From NCBI RefSeq assembly GCF_001487165.1, contig NZ_LN913006.1:1115293-1179292 (forward strand): 64,000 nt of DNA. The letters run 5' to 3'. The position numbers were made by a program, and so were the translations under genes. This document shows, piece after piece, positions 29,296 through 35,803 of the stretch (the stretch's first letter is position 1; every line of letters begins with the position of its first letter). Below the pieces are notes generated by a model. That model was not told the origin of the DNA. It saw nothing but the letters and a program-made list of their open reading frames with translations, and did not search any database. The DNA is from Blautia massiliensis (ex Durand et al. 2017) (GTDB lineage: Bacteria > Bacillota > Clostridia > Lachnospirales > Lachnospiraceae).

Positions 29296-31536
29296 ATGGA
29301 CCATTGGATATTAAGCTACAAAAGCCCGGCAGAAGCCTGGAATGAGGCACTGCCGCTCGGAAACGGAACTCTTGGAGTGATGTCCTATGGCCGTCTGGAA
29401 AATGAAACACTTGAACTGAATCTTGATACTTTATGGTCCGGTGACGGCAGTTCAAAGCTGAATAAAAACGGCCATGCTGATCTTGGGCATCTGCGAAAGC
29501 TGCTTAAAGACCAGAAGCATCAGGAAGCAGAAGATTATTGTAGGAAACATATCCTGGGTGACTGGACGGACAGTTACCTCCCGGCTGGCAGACTCAATAT
29601 GAGTCTGCAGATGTCCGGACAGGCACCCGGCGGATATGTACGCCAGCTCTCTTTGAACCATGCGGTGGAAACAGTGGCATCTGCAGGGTATAAAAGGGAG
29701 CTGTTTGTGAGCATGGCAGATCCTCTGCTGGCAGTCCATTTCCAGGCAGCCCATAAACAGAAACTTCATCTTGAGATTTCACTGGAAAGTGAGATCAGAT
29801 ATGAGAAAATAAAAAACTGTGAAGATACCGTTTTACTTTCTGGACGGGCACCTTCTTATGTGGCACCGCCATACTATGACTGCCCGGAACCGGTTGTTTA
29901 TGAGGCCGGAAAAGGAATCCGGTTTACACTGGCTGTAAAGGTTGTTGTACCGCAGGGCAGTGTGAAATGCTGTGATGGTAAGCTCCTGATCGAGGGAGAA
30001 CAGGACATATTTGTTTATTTTACAGGAAATACAGATTTTGGACGGAATGCAGATACACCACAGCTGGAAAAAGAGTGTATGGAAGTATTGGAAGATCCGG
30101 ATTATGAACAGCTGAAGAAAAGACATCTGGGAGAATACCATAAATATTTTAACCGTATGGAATTATCACTGAACGACACCAGGGAAAACCGTTTGGCAGA
30201 GATGATGTTCCATTATGCCAGATACCTGATGATCTGTTCCTCCAGACCGGGAAGCCAGTGTGCAAACCTCCAGGGAATCTGGAACAACAGGATGCGTGCC
30301 CCCTGGAGCAGTAATTATACCGTTAATATCAACACGGAGATGAATTACTGGATGGCTGAGAGATGCAACCTGAGCGAATGTCAGGAACCACTCTTTGACC
30401 TGATCTGCCGGACAGCAGAGGATGGACGGGAGACAGCCAGGGAGGTCTATGGACTTTCCGGATGGGTGAGCCACCACAACCTGGATATCTGGGGACATTC
30501 CGGACCTGTTGGATATTTCGGGCAGGATGAGGACCCCTGTTCCTATTCTATGTGGCCTATGAGTTCGGGATGGCTCTGCCGGCATCTCTGGGAACATTAC
30601 TGCTATACAGAAGACCTGGATTTCCTGAAAGACAGAGCATATCCGGTGATCGAGGGAGCCGTAAAGTTCTATCTTGGGTTCCTGTTCCCATATGGGGAAT
30701 ACTATGTTACCGGGCCTTCCACTTCCCCGGAAAACCGTTTCTGTGGAGAAGATGGAAAATCCCACAGTGTGGGAATGGCATCCACCATGGATATCAGCAT
30801 CCTGAAAGAACTGTTTGGGTACTACCTGAAAATATGTAACATCCTGGGCATAGAGGGAGAGACAGCGGATGTAAAACGGGTACTTTCAAAACTGCCGCCA
30901 TTTAAGACGGGAAGCTTTGGACAAATCCGGGAATGGTTCCTGGATTATCCGGAAACAGAGATCCATCACCGCCATGTTTCCCATCTGTATGGTCTTTATC
31001 CCGGAAACCTGATCACAGAAAAAAACCCGGAGCTTCTGGAAGCCTGCCGGGTGGCTCTGGAAAGGCGCGGGGACGAAGGAACCGGATGGTGTATGGCATG
31101 GAAGGCCTGCCTCTGGGCCAGACTCCGGGACGGGGAACATGCACTGGGGCTTTTGAAAAACCAGCTCCGTTATACCAGGGAGGAAAATATTTCCTGTGTG
31201 GGAGGCGGCATTTATCCCAATATGCTGTGTGCACACCCACCGTTCCAGATCGATGGGAACTTTGGCTTTGCAGCTGCGGTTGCAGAGATGCTTATCCAGA
31301 GCAGGAAAGGGTATATCCTGTTACTTCCGGCACTTCCGGATGAATGGAAAGACGGAAATGTCCGGGGAATGAAGGCACAGGGTGCCATCACAGTTGATTT
31401 TGAATGGAGAGATGGCAGGATACACAGGGTTCGCCTCTGTTCTTCCTGTGAGCAGAAAGTAACGCTGGAATGTAATGGAATTTCAAAAACAGTATTTTTA
31501 AGACCTGATGGGACAGAGGATATGATTTTTGATTGA
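29296..31536 (+). CDS. Alpha-L-fucosidase, GH95 family
   Basis: 746 residues. An inverting fucosidase that removes mainly alpha-1,2-linked fucose. The N-terminal sandwich opens WNEALPLGNGTLGVMSYG. The (alpha/alpha)6 barrel shows NLQGIWNNRMRAPWSSNYTV then NINTEMNYW, whose asparagines correspond to those activating water in this family, and PPFQIDGNFGFAAAVAEML with the general-acid Asp. No signal peptide. AGGAGG is upstream of ATG 29296. Bases are visibly more GC-rich than in the neighbouring genes, particularly 30400-31300, which suggests a separate history. Confidence 0.93.
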   Translation: MDHWILSYKSPAEAWNEALPLGNGTLGVMSYGRLENETLELNLDTLWSGDGSSKLNKNGHADLGHLRKLLKDQKHQEAEDYCRKHILGDWTDSYLPAGRLNMSLQMSGQAPGGYVRQLSLNHAVETVASAGYKRELFVSMADPLLAVHFQAAHKQKLHLEISLESEIRYEKIKNCEDTVLLSGRAPSYVAPPYYDCPEPVVYEAGKGIRFTLAVKVVVPQGSVKCCDGKLLIEGEQDIFVYFTGNTDFGRNADTPQLEKECMEVLEDPDYEQLKKRHLGEYHKYFNRMELSLNDTRENRLAEMMFHYARYLMICSSRPGSQCANLQGIWNNRMRAPWSSNYTVNINTEMNYWMAERCNLSECQEPLFDLICRTAEDGRETAREVYGLSGWVSHHNLDIWGHSGPVGYFGQDEDPCSYSMWPMSSGWLCRHLWEHYCYTEDLDFLKDRAYPVIEGAVKFYLGFLFPYGEYYVTGPSTSPENRFCGEDGKSHSVGMASTMDISILKELFGYYLKICNILGIEGETADVKRVLSKLPPFKTGSFGQIREWFLDYPETEIHHRHVSHLYGLYPGNLITEKNPELLEACRVALERRGDEGTGWCMAWKACLWARLRDGEHALGLLKNQLRYTREENISCVGGGIYPNMLCAHPPFQIDGNFGFAAAVAEMLIQSRKGYILLLPALPDEWKDGNVRGMKAQGAITVDFEWRDGRIHRVRLCSSCEQKVTLECNGISKTVFLRPDGTEDMIFD

Positions 31537-31567
31537 TCTGTCCTGAGGACCTGAAAATCATAGACAG
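31532..31567 (+). repeat. 36-bp direct repeat, copy 1
   Basis: Runs ATTGATCTGTCCTGAGGA.. to ATAGACAG across the stop codon of the GH95 gene. It matches 31 of 36 bases of copy 2 at 32023-32058, and all five differences are transitions. In one frame both copies read as a C-terminal peptide (LICPEDLKIIDSGK). Confidence 0.6.
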
Positions 31568-31620
31568 TGGTAAGTAATGGGGTACAATAAAATACAGCCA
31601 ATCGATTTTGCCAGAAACTA

Positions 31621-31649
31621 TTGATATTTCTTAGGGTATCGCATATAAT
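31621..31649 (+). promoter_or_regulatory. Promoter of the structured RNA gene
   Basis: TTGATA (31621-31626), 17-bp spacer, TATAAT (31644-31649). Transcription should begin near 31656. Confidence 0.8.
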
Positions 31650-31655
31650 ATAGTT

Positions 31656-31906
31656 AAACTAAAAGGTTTCGTGTAGCGGCACGTAAAAGCTGTACTGTGC
31701 CCGGGCAGGGTAATTACTGGGACTATTTGATACTCGGAAGGGTATTACGCCCACACCAGGGAGATACGGTGAGTCCGCGCCGGGGACTTAATGATACCGG
31801 CGACATTTTAGACGTTCGGAAGGATGTCGCGGCTGACAGCCAGCATAAAACCGCTTTTTAAGATTATGGGCACTGGATAACAAAAAGTTGTCCGGTGCTG
31901 TTTTTA
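31656..31906 (+). ncRNA. Stand-alone structured non-coding RNA with own promoter and terminator
   Basis: About 250 nt with no credible open frame. AGCGG (31675) can pair with CCGCT (31851) to close the whole domain. Inside are GGGTAAT/ATTACGCCC, a hairpin ATACTC-GGAA-GGGTAT, CACC/GGTG, AGTCC/GGACT whose loop CGCCG can pair with downstream CGGCG (an H-type pseudoknot), GCGACAT/ATGTCGC and GGCT/AGCC. A terminator closes it. The GGGAGATACGGTGAGTCC core recalls a cobalamin-riboswitch core only superficially, and no gene follows. A raiA-motif type RNA is my best guess from phylum, size and stand-alone position; the class is not proven. Confidence 0.7.
31870..31906 (+). terminator. Terminator of the structured RNA
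   Basis: GCACTGGATAAC-AAAAA-GTTGTCCGGTGC followed by TGTTTTT. Confidence 0.88.
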
Positions 31907-31934: not shown

Positions 31935-32027
31935 ATGGGAAAACAACAGGATAGAGAGAAAATCGTACAGGAGATTAAAATAGCTGCCGATCTGTATAGG
32001 AAGCATTTAGTGTGGCGATTCAATTAA
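31935..32027 (+). pseudogene. 30-codon truncated reading frame
   Basis: ATG 31935 opens GKQQDREKIVQEIKIAADLY then RKHLVWRFN and stops. The amphipathic helical start looks like the N-terminus of a longer protein; the following direct-repeat copy reads as a different protein C-terminus (LIYPEGLEIIDSRIM), so the middle seems deleted. Family not recognised. Confidence 0.4.
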
Positions 32028-32058
32028 TCTATCCTGAGGGCCTGGAAATTATAGACAG
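32023..32058 (+). repeat. 36-bp direct repeat, copy 2
   Basis: Begins ATTAATCTATCCTGAGGG and ends ATAGACAG; see copy 1. The two copies bracket the structured RNA gene. Confidence 0.6.
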
Positions 32059-32094
32059 CCGTATCATGTAAAAACACATGGTATGGCTGTTTTT
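32055..32094 (+). terminator. Intrinsic terminator
   Basis: ACAGCCGTATCATGT pairs with ACATGGTATGGCTGT, followed by TTTT. Confidence 0.8.
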
Positions 32095-32284: not shown

Positions 32285-32803
32285 ATGAATGAGGTTTTGA
32301 TACGAAAAGCGAAGAAAGGCGACAAAGATGCTTTCTGCCGACTTATGGATGAGAATGTACAGAGTATGTATAAGATTGCGGCAGCATATCTGAAAAATGA
32401 TGAAGATGTTGCGGATGCAATACAGGATACGATTCTTTCCTGTTATGAAAATCTGAAAAGTCTGAAACAGAACAGATATTTTAAAACTTGGATGATTCGA
32501 ATCTTGATCAACAAGTGTAAGGACATGATACAGAAGAAAAAGCTGGTTACTTATACGGATCAGATGCCGGAAACACCTTTTCACGAAGAAGAATATGCGG
32601 CAATGGAATGGGCACAAGTATTAGAAACATTGGATAGCAAATATCGTTTGGTTGTTCTTTTGTACTATATGGAAGGATTTAGTGTCCGGGAGATCAGTGA
32701 CGCTCTGGATATGAAGGAAAGCACTGTGAAATCTCGTCTTCATCGTGGTAGAAAACAGATTGCAGAGATGTATGGATATAAGGTTAAGGAGGGACGTGTT
32801 TAA
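32285..32803 (+). CDS. ECF-type sigma factor
   Basis: 172 residues. Region 2 (about 8-75: YKIAAAYLKNDEDVADAIQD, FKTWMIRILINKCKDMIQ) and region 4 (about 100-160: YYMEGFSVREISDALDMKES, TVKSRLHRGRKQ). It is similar in design to the factor at 435, and like it is coupled to a DUF4179 gene (overlap of one base). The perfect ECF promoter upstream suggests it switches itself on. The L,D-transpeptidase gene downstream points to a cell-envelope stress role. Confidence 0.92.
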   Translation: MNEVLIRKAKKGDKDAFCRLMDENVQSMYKIAAAYLKNDEDVADAIQDTILSCYENLKSLKQNRYFKTWMIRILINKCKDMIQKKKLVTYTDQMPETPFHEEEYAAMEWAQVLETLDSKYRLVVLLYYMEGFSVREISDALDMKESTVKSRLHRGRKQIAEMYGYKVKEGRV

Positions 32804-34264: not shown

Positions 34265-35803
34265 ATGAGACAAAAAGAAGTGATAGGGCAGTCAATGAGA
34301 ACCACAAAATCGGCAAGACCAGGTTCAGTTGTGTATGTGCCGATGGATAAATCGGAATTCAGATCTATTATATTTTCAGAAAAGAAGAAAAATAAAATTA
34401 AGAAAATTGTAATATTGATTATATTGATGATTTTTGTTATAGGCTGTTGTATGTATGCAGGTATATCTTATTATTACTCATATCACTTCTTTTATGGGAC
34501 GACCATCAATGGGATTGACAGTTCAAATAAGACAGCATATGAGGTTGAGCAGGAGATTGCTGGGAAAAAGGATAACTATACTATTCAGGTAAGGGCAAGA
34601 ATGCAGGACCCGCAGGCCATTACAGGAAAAGACATTGATTATAAATACGTATCCAGCGGTGCGGTTCTCCAGCTGCTGAAAACTCAGAAATCATGGGAAT
34701 GGATCGGCAGTCTTTTTGAAACAAAAAACTATATGGTTCAAGAAGAGACTTTTTTCAGCCGGGAGAAACTGGAAGAACAGGTAAATTCATTAAATTGTGC
34801 GAAAAAAGAGAATCAGATAGCACCGGAAAATGCGTATGTAAGTTTTGTTAACTCAGAATTCACTATTGTGCCAGAAACGGAAGGCAACGAATTAAATACC
34901 AAAGAAGCTTATCAGATGATATGCAGGGCAATCGATAACGATGCGGCAGAGGTAAATCTGGAAAGTGATCCAAAGGCTTATAAGAAAGCAGATGTGACGA
35001 AAGAAAGTTCAGAACTTCAGAATATGGTAAATACATATAAGAACCTGACAAAAGCAAATATCACATATACATTTGGAGACGAAACGGTAACACTCGATGG
35101 GAATACCATCAAAAACTGGCTGCAGTTTGACGAGAAAGGGCAGCTGCTCCAGAATGATGAAGCCTTCCGGCAGCACGTAGTGGATTATGTGGCACAGCTT
35201 GCAGCAGATCATGATACAGTTGGCACTGAAAGACAATTTCAGACCACGAGCGGAAGGACTGTGTATGTATATGGTTCTGCCTATGGGTGGAAGATTGATC
35301 AGGACAAGGAAGTAGCACAGCTCATGCAGGAAATTCAGTCAGGAACCCAGACAACCAGGGAACCGGTGTATTCTATGAGGGCAAATGCACACGGGATCAA
35401 TGATCTCGGAGATACATATATAGAGGTAGATCTTACAGAGCAGTATATGTGGTATTATCAGAATGGAAATATTATTTTCCAATCAGAAATCGTATCCGGA
35501 CTGCCAAGCGATCCGGATAGAAAAACACCCCCTGGAATATTCACATTGAATTCAAAGAGCAGTCCGTCCGTGCTGCGAGGTGAAATGACAGCAAATGGAA
35601 CCTATTCTTATGAACAGCCGGTAACGTACTGGATGCCATTCAATGGAGGAATTGGCTTTCATGATGCAGACTGGCAGCCGTACTTTGGTGGTGACAGATA
35701 TCTTACAGGTGGTTCTCATGGATGTATCAATCTTCCACCAGAAAATGCCGGACAGCTTTATAGTCTTATTCAGTATGATGTCCCGATAATCTGTTTTTAC
35801 TAA
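34265..35803 (+). CDS. L,D-transpeptidase with peptidoglycan-binding domain
   Basis: 512 residues. It makes 3-3 peptidoglycan cross-links or modifies the wall outside the cell. A cytoplasmic N-terminus (about 45 residues) precedes a membrane helix (IVILIILMIFVIGCCMYAGI, about 47-66). A peptidoglycan-binding (PG_binding_4-like) region follows, then the YkuD catalytic domain from about 380 (YIEVDLTEQYMWYYQNGNII) with catalytic Cys487 in GGSHGCINLP. The gene lies 22 bp after the anti-sigma gene and is closed by a terminator, so it belongs to that operon. Confidence 0.93.
   Translation: MRQKEVIGQSMRTTKSARPGSVVYVPMDKSEFRSIIFSEKKKNKIKKIVILIILMIFVIGCCMYAGISYYYSYHFFYGTTINGIDSSNKTAYEVEQEIAGKKDNYTIQVRARMQDPQAITGKDIDYKYVSSGAVLQLLKTQKSWEWIGSLFETKNYMVQEETFFSREKLEEQVNSLNCAKKENQIAPENAYVSFVNSEFTIVPETEGNELNTKEAYQMICRAIDNDAAEVNLESDPKAYKKADVTKESSELQNMVNTYKNLTKANITYTFGDETVTLDGNTIKNWLQFDEKGQLLQNDEAFRQHVVDYVAQLAADHDTVGTERQFQTTSGRTVYVYGSAYGWKIDQDKEVAQLMQEIQSGTQTTREPVYSMRANAHGINDLGDTYIEVDLTEQYMWYYQNGNIIFQSEIVSGLPSDPDRKTPPGIFTLNSKSSPSVLRGEMTANGTYSYEQPVTYWMPFNGGIGFHDADWQPYFGGDRYLTGGSHGCINLPPENAGQLYSLIQYDVPIICFY

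Follow-up and report, generated by a model that had tools for sequence, protein, structure and literature searches.

An orphaned structured RNA of Blautia massiliensis is a probable antitoxin to PBECR4 proteins in a type III-like toxin-antitoxin family

The 64,000-nucleotide stretch analysed here (the window), from the genome of the gut commensal Blautia massiliensis, includes ~210 nt of non-coding sequence between a promoter and an intrinsic terminator, and the question that this locus raises is what function an RNA made from it might have. An initial annotation described a stand-alone structured RNA gene, of a class that might be raiA-like or new. The surrounding genes code for a glycoside hydrolase of family 95 (29296-31536), an ECF-type sigma factor (32285-32803) and an L,D-transpeptidase (34265-35803).

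Both of the signals proposed initially, a near-consensus promoter with 17-bp spacing and a strong terminator, are borne out (Table 1), and the homologues of the RNA (referred to here as class A) that were inspected for this have promoter-like sites at the same place. With the start of the RNA predicted near 31655 from the position of the promoter, the predicted transcript 31655-31906 has a folding energy of -85.3 kcal/mol. Shuffles that preserve the dinucleotides give -71.7 (sd 4.3), which corresponds to z -3.17, and one of 200 such shuffles folds as low. A 54-aa frame at 31697-31861 was considered for a coding role and rejected, as it is not conserved in the homologues; any frame is open through the RNA in only five of 53 sequences, and the RNA therefore has no conserved reading frame. 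The scan against Rfam that had been proposed for cobalamin, raiA and other RNAs gives no match for the window RNA at gathering thresholds (Rfam 15), and at E≤10 the sole match is PyrD_leader (E 6.8, far under its cut-off). The raiA-like assignment is thus not supported, and the alternative of a new class agrees with the absence of the RNA from Rfam 15. Seven class A homologues have nothing matching on the RNA at E≤1, and the covariance models of drum RNA (RF02958) and of the abiF RNA motif (RF03085) do not match the window RNA, also at E≤10.

Table 1. Positions of the RNA gene, its structural elements and the adjoining gene remnant in the window
Feature	Position	Strand	Basis and remarks
Promoter TTGATA-17-TATAAT	31621..31649	+	11/12 consensus positions; TTGATA at 31621, TATAAT ends at 31649
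Structured RNA gene (class A RNA)	31655..31906	+	Predicted start (~31655) from promoter, end from terminator
5' hairpin AAAC/GTTT at presumed start	31656..31669	+	Sequence reading; covarying columns 31653-31669 in unguided scan
Hairpin CGTG/CACG	31670..31683	+	GATG/CATC in one large subgroup; 76.9% paired (53 sequences)
Closing helix, 31689-31692 with 31837-31840	31689..31840	+	100% of cells paired in 53 sequences; 2/4 pairs two-sided
Unit 1: H-type pseudoknot and hairpin 31729-31746	31695..31746	+	Covariation, 53 sequences
Middle hairpin CACC/GGTG	31754..31771	+	Least certain helix; 50% paired in 53 sequences, 79.2% in six
Unit 2: H-type pseudoknot and hairpin 31811-31828	31772..31828	+	Pseudoknot is the one named in the initial annotation
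Intrinsic terminator	31869..31906	+	13-pair stem 31869-31899, then T-rich tail GTTTTTATAT; lies between RNA and toxin remnant
PBECR4 gene remnant	31935..32027	+	24 original codons, then short out-of-gene tail and stop; 30-codon open frame
Junction of 573-bp deletion relative to L005	32006..32007		Alignment with L005 (same genus, intact gene)

A DNA search finds the window RNA in nine of 98 genomes, and a covariance model built from six sequences (R1) has matches in the genus (12 of 64 genomes), the family (16 of 397) and the class (four of 291), the genome of the window being included each time. A DNA pattern taken from the 3' half of the RNA yields 85 stretches in named genomes and five in viral contigs, three of the latter new, and R1 confirms the whole RNA (or a part of it at contig ends) in 87 of 88 new loci, L104 being the exception. 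The sources of the homologues include Blautia luti, B. wexlerae, Butyrivibrio, Roseburia and Fusicatenibacter. Isolates of Selenomonas ruminantium and Anaerovibrio slackiae, which have it too, are outside the Clostridia, both genera being members of the Negativicutes. The presence of the RNA both within the Clostridia and outside them suggests horizontal spread.

The secondary structure is conserved, as judged from nine helices in a MAFFT alignment of 53 distinct sequences (<90% alike) that was not structure-fitted and in which the misaligned 5' half of L082 was kept. Over these sequences 88.1% of the cells are paired, compared with 77.4% in shuffled controls and 34.0-49.8% in slid controls, noting that relatedness of the sequences inflates the shuffled control and not the slid one. 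Two-sided changes are present in 30 of the 45 pairs, above all shuffles and slid controls, and in 320 cells (104 when shuffled); none of 500 shuffles reaches the observed values. The initial annotation had staked its stems on covariation among homologues, and by this measure they stand. A scan of column pairs that was not guided by the structure recovers pairs of all nine helices, although some non-canonical column pairs also score high (up to 61, where the top canonical pair scores 69), which is a sign of subgroup signal; because of this, we rely on the helix counts and the slid controls.

From 5' to 3', class A RNA has a 5' hairpin, the CGTG/CACG hairpin and a closing helix (GCTG/CAGC) enclosing two similar units, each an H-type pseudoknot followed by a hairpin, with the middle hairpin between them. 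The lower pairing of the CGTG/CACG hairpin arises because the GATG/CATC subgroup is shifted by one alignment column. In unit 1, the pseudoknot stems 31695-31697/31706-31708 and 31700-31704/31717-31721 are paired in 96.2% and 97.4% of cells, with one of three and five of five pairs two-sided, respectively, and the hairpin is paired in 74.5% (six of seven pairs two-sided). The pseudoknot read initially from the window (AGTCC/GGACT, with CGCCG pairing CGGCG) is that of unit 2, and both of its stems covary over the 53 sequences. The stem AGTCC (31772-31776) with GGACT (31784-31788) is 99.2% paired with three of five pairs two-sided, via two sequences only (L037 and L039), in which the otherwise constant stem is altered on both sides; the stem CGCCGG (31778-31783) with CCGGCG (31797-31802) is 97.8% paired (five of six two-sided), and the hairpin 96.7% (four of seven). 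Two other helices were discarded: a closing stem at alignment columns 20-22/176-178 with a 3' hairpin, which gave way to 31689-31692/31837-31840 in light of the unguided scan, and a 5'-3' stem (GGTTT/AAACC) that is predicted when the window sequence is folded alone and is not kept in the homologues.

The two units resemble each other in sequence within one RNA (mean z 4.6, z>2 in 47 of 53, mean identity 62%). Three RNAs of 102-106 nt (L022, L024 and L038) have a single unit, which looks like the product of recombination between the two hairpins. We note also a 143-nt Anaerovibrio form (L129 11509-11651, L099 6725-6867) of a length between one and two units, in a prophage region lacking PBECR4.

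In other genomes, two proteins whose genes come immediately after the terminator match Pfam family PBECR4 (PF18813) with 81.5 and 92.8 bits (cut-off 27), and we scanned 116 class A loci (not including L041 and L042, with R1 scores of 57 and 46.7 bits) using an HMM made from eight PBECR4 proteins behind the RNA. After removal of 15 near-duplicates and of eight more loci that could not be judged, 93 remained, of which 51 have an intact PBECR4 gene, ten have fragments and 32 have none, such that 42 are without an intact gene. Among the 57 loci listed with this distance, 55 have the PBECR4 start codon 56-92 nt past the point where the RNA model ends, and the other two have it 133 and 146 nt past that point. 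The stand-alone layout of the window, as first described, is thus misleading. All 49 of the uncut RNAs beside an intact PBECR4 gene have two units and none of the three one-unit RNAs is beside one, although these numbers are small. The helices remain paired in orphan RNAs, without an intact gene (95.5% of cells, n=14), compared with 98.7% for RNAs with one (n=33).

The downstream proteins behind RNAs without PBECR4 were scanned in part, and the genes present there include AbiEii (L078), PemK/MazF-like (L064), PIN-domain (L063; also L021 and L023) and Polbeta nucleotidyltransferase (L046) genes. In L009 the class A RNA (minus strand, 1502-1682) precedes an Abi_2/AbiD-like gene at a distance of ~135 nt, with no PBECR4, and the region 1200-1800 does not match the abiF motif RF03085 at E≤10. 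Each of these AbiEii, PemK/MazF-like, PIN, Polbeta and Abi_2 genes is represented by a single locus or by near-copies, and we treat them as neighbours.

The window itself has a remnant of a PBECR4 gene immediately behind the terminator, whereas the initial annotation recorded no gene directly downstream; this remnant matches the N-terminus of the PBECR4 HMM (E 4e-7). Alignment with L005 shows 501 of 507 identical positions over the promoter, RNA, terminator and first 24 PBECR4 codons, and 215 of 230 beyond the 573-bp gap. In the aligned sequences TTAGT is present at both ends of the stretch that the window lacks, which suggests a deletion between short repeats, and the best reading is that the window holds an orphan antitoxin locus that has lost the greater part of its toxin gene. 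A repeat finder reports no direct repeats above threshold at the window locus. By eye, and under that threshold, two similar stretches (31529-31577 and 32020-32064, around CCTGAGG.CCTG.AAAT.ATAGACAG) flank the RNA and remnant, and are perhaps the trace of an insertion. PBECR4 loss took other routes in relatives: in L003/L184 the gene has two internal stops, and in the Blautia luti genome G015 the RNA and the PBECR4 gene are at the ends of two separate contigs.

PBECR is a published predicted RNase domain with a BECR fold, with solo versions in phages and mobile elements, and its description includes a histidine located in a helix and, at the C-terminal side, a Ser/Thr (PMC5512222). An AlphaFold2 model of PBECR4 (31 sequences; pLDDT 93.6, pTM 0.87) places an invariant H50 in helix 45-52 and an invariant R153, together with S151 (>90%), in strand 142-153; the modelled placement of H50 and S151 fits that description. 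Pfam reports PBECR4 alone on the downstream protein, NCBIfam gives nothing over cut-off, no PDB chain matches the PBECR4 profile at E≤10, and Foldseek gives no match to the model at E≤0.001. At a second look, the highest-ranking structural match, a RelE toxin, reaches Z 2.9 over 76 residues with an rmsd of 4.2, and unrelated entries score equally; ToxN, AbiQ and CptN are not among the fold matches listed, an absence that excludes nothing. PBECR4 is thus a predicted nuclease on the grounds of its family and not of a fold match. PADLOC gives no match for PBECR4, and PBECR4 was not found in viral contigs using protein patterns, nor in phage records. A class A PBECR4 protein matches one Butyrivibrio plasmid; a fragment of a class B PBECR4 (see below) has no match among plasmids.

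Some class A loci are in phages. In L130 the intact module is behind phage holin and endolysin genes, which resembles the position of abiF in the lysis module of the C. difficile phage phi027 (PMC12373285). In L026 the RNA and gene follow what weakly resembles the end of a tape-measure gene. Orphan class A RNAs are present in two phage contigs (L027 and L129), that in L129 behind a virion structural gene.

A protein-only search with PF18813 finds PBECR4 genes in the genus (20 of 64 genomes), the class (23 of 341) and the phylum sample (four of 348). We read the DNA upstream of 32 such loci, of which 30 were scored (L138 has class A and L140 lacks a start), and compared them with 55 of the 57 class A loci (two having too little upstream DNA) and with 300 control genes taken from the first ATG of long open frames, some of these control starts being wrong. 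A terminator is within 130 nt of the start at 24 of the 30 other PBECR4 loci, 53 of 55 class A loci and 34 of 300 controls; a promoter-like site is further upstream at 23, 47 and 28, respectively, and both are present together at 19, 45 and five. The fold z-scores of the RNAs are modestly below those of the controls (-1.5 and -2.3, compared with -1.0).

The leader RNAs at these 32 loci were sorted by eye into classes, two of which, class B (eight sequences) and class D (nine sequences), were picked for analysis. In class B RNA the loops of two tandem units are paired to linkers, and an outer loop is paired to the 3' end; 207 of 208 cells (99.5%) are paired, 12 of 26 pairs are two-sided, none of 500 shuffles scores as high, and there is no Rfam match. 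Elsewhere in the genome of the window (L131; G000:C4:3132469-3133041) there is a second PBECR4 gene, intact and encoding 222 aa, behind a class B RNA with a promoter and terminator. The hairpins of class D covary, with two-sided changes in 10 of 18 pairs, and a long-range helix joins one loop to sequence on its 3' side (44 of 45 cells, the best of a small placement scan sought after reading by eye). All nine class D sequences are drum RNA, RF02958 (57.8-101.8 bits, cut-off 43), in L132, L134, L135, L136, L141, L144, L160, L161 and L165. Class E (L147 and L155) shows a weak drum resemblance (34 bits, compared with the cut-off of 43), and the leader of L149, without an Rfam match, reads as two tandem H-type pseudoknots. 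The leaders of L147, L148, L155, L150, L171, L173, L178 and L180 may be separate RNA classes. We note that ordinary FMN and SAM riboswitches are near L010 (1139-1278) and L148 (1097-1214) and are unrelated to class A RNA.

The reverse search, using the drum model alone on 331 genomes of the class, has 21 matches, spread over 16 genomes. Twenty of these have enough downstream DNA, and directly behind the RNA nine have an intact PBECR4 gene, three a fragment and eight none, four of the eight being near-identical copies in one genome (G728). Thus a search that starts from this catalogued RNA leads to PBECR4, and one that starts from PBECR4 leads to the RNA. G728 has five further drum copies (L206-L210), four of which (L206-L209) have near-identical downstream DNA without PBECR4 and the last of which is cut, and it looks as if drum RNA has spread on its own in this genome.

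We propose that 31655-31906 is, with good probability, an RNA antitoxin, now orphaned, from a family of type III-like toxin-antitoxin modules in which PBECR4 is the toxin, because a covarying, pseudoknotted RNA with tandem units is linked to PBECR4 genes, and other PBECR4 loci have the same layout. In intact relatives a single promoter would drive the RNA, with most transcripts ending at the terminator and some reading through into the toxin gene, and the terminator between the two would leave the RNA in excess over the toxin. By analogy with ToxIN, AbiF-RCd22 and AvcID, the two tandem pseudoknot-plus-hairpin units would bind the PBECR4 nuclease and block its toxicity, and a stop in transcription, for example upon phage infection, would lead to decay of the RNA and freeing of the nuclease. 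The window would then hold an orphan antitoxin, the 573-bp deletion between the TTAGT repeats having removed most of the toxin gene and left the promoter, RNA and terminator.

Several observations sit less easily with an antitoxin. Once the toxin is gone, an RNA that is an antitoxin and nothing more would be expected to decay, yet the orphan RNAs stay paired, and they are common, an intact toxin gene missing from 42 of 93 class A loci and 11 of 20 drum loci. We also count against it the lack of a ToxN-type fold among the matches, the L009 RNA before an Abi_2 gene and the modest fold z-scores relative to controls. The orphans cut both ways: they fit an earlier loss of the toxin, yet their number and kept pairing leave room for a role as antidotes. 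In such an independent role in trans, the window orphan would be kept as an anti-addiction RNA against incoming toxin modules or as a phage counter-defence RNA, and the orphans in phage contigs L027 and L129, the several gene-less drum copies in one genome and the described escape of a phage via an RNA mimic of ToxI (PMC3475682) all favour it. Recent toxin loss explains the window equally well, since an identity of 501 of 507 to an intact relative is too close for selection on the orphan to be read, and we regard this role as unlikely, and as one that would complement the antitoxin reading rather than compete with it.

The strongest rival is that class A RNA is a cis-acting leader, similar to an attenuator or riboswitch, that senses a signal and controls read-through into PBECR4 without binding the protein. 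Promoter, structured RNA, terminator and gene are the layout of a leader too, and structured leaders are on record for abiD1 and have been put forward for RCd22 (PMC12373285). However, tandem similar units, several RNA folds before one protein family, and many gene-less orphans with promoter and terminator intact fit a trans-acting RNA better, and a leader is distinctly unlikely. The sequence is also compatible with an RNA that guides, scaffolds or is a substrate for PBECR4, directing or activating it rather than inhibiting it, and RNA-nuclease pairs of this kind exist; no variable spacer-like part is seen, however, and tandem pseudoknots are the layout of type III antitoxins (PMC5086642), which makes such a role very improbable. 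Membership of a known family, for example raiA or the cobalamin riboswitches, was an impression of the initial annotation only, and in light of the Rfam results for the window RNA and its seven homologues the chance of it is close to nil.

Returning to the antitoxin reading, the relatives have four features of the layout and fold of type III systems: an RNA gene with its own promoter before a toxin gene (a remnant in the window), a terminator between them, tandem RNA repeats and a pseudoknotted RNA. ToxIN, AbiQ, CptIN and TenpIN similarly have the RNA before the toxin, an intrinsic terminator between, tandem units and pseudoknots (PMC5086642), with an RNase predicted as toxin here as well. In contrast to these, the toxin here is PBECR4, whose sequence matches none of the solved toxins, and the two units are ~60-65 nt each, compared with two to six short repeats (34-36 nt for the ToxIN family; PMC5086642). 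In AbiF-RCd22 of C. difficile a phage-borne toxin gene is likewise behind a promoter, a two-motif RNA and a terminator, and the RNA has been shown to neutralise the toxin by binding (PMC12373285), as we suppose class A RNA to do; but AbiF is a HEPN Abi_2 protein, and its RNA motif RF03085 is unrelated to the window RNA. AvcID is a type III system with a toxin that is not ToxN-like, which shows that such toxins can count as type III; phage infection leads to loss of its RNA and frees the toxin (PMC10511110). It differs in that its toxin is a deaminase and that no terminator is predicted between RNA and gene (PMC10511110). Drum RNA, with the same layout directly before PBECR4, is the partner RNA of another PBECR4 subgroup, although the window RNA differs from it in fold and sequence. 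The PBECR domains of polyvalent proteins belong to the same domain clade, and the excerpted text on them does not mention an associated RNA (PMC5512222).

Type III systems are few, with three classical families (PMC5086642) and the later additions AvcID (PMC10511110) and AbiF (PMC12373285). Candidate RNAs upstream of ToxN were reported by Fremin and Bhatt in 2021, whose thousands of candidates may include the RNAs described here (PMC8040213). The literature searched describes no PBECR4-RNA toxin-antitoxin system and does not contain the name PBECR4; among the matches listed for type III systems and AbiF there is no PBECR system, and among the papers listed for drum RNA none uses that name or 'drum motif'. 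Drum RNA reportedly stems from a 2017 paper, and work in Cell from 2025 is said to deal with AbiF and Cas13.

A broader proposal, which we offer tentatively, is that PBECR4 proteins of the Clostridia and their neighbours form a large undescribed family of RNA-controlled toxins with at least three covariation-shown pseudoknotted folds (class A, class B and drum), and probably more, and that the frequent orphans in cells and phages are working antidotes in anti-addiction or counter-defence, with drum RNA gaining a partner. If the antitoxin reading is correct, it would add a further type III toxin family with several RNA classes, its domain encoded by 20 of the 64 genomes from the genus, and would widen what is known of this kind of system; it would also give a likely function to the Pfam domain PBECR4 and a partner gene to Rfam's drum RNA. 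The window would then hold a clean natural case in which the antitoxin has been kept and the toxin lost.
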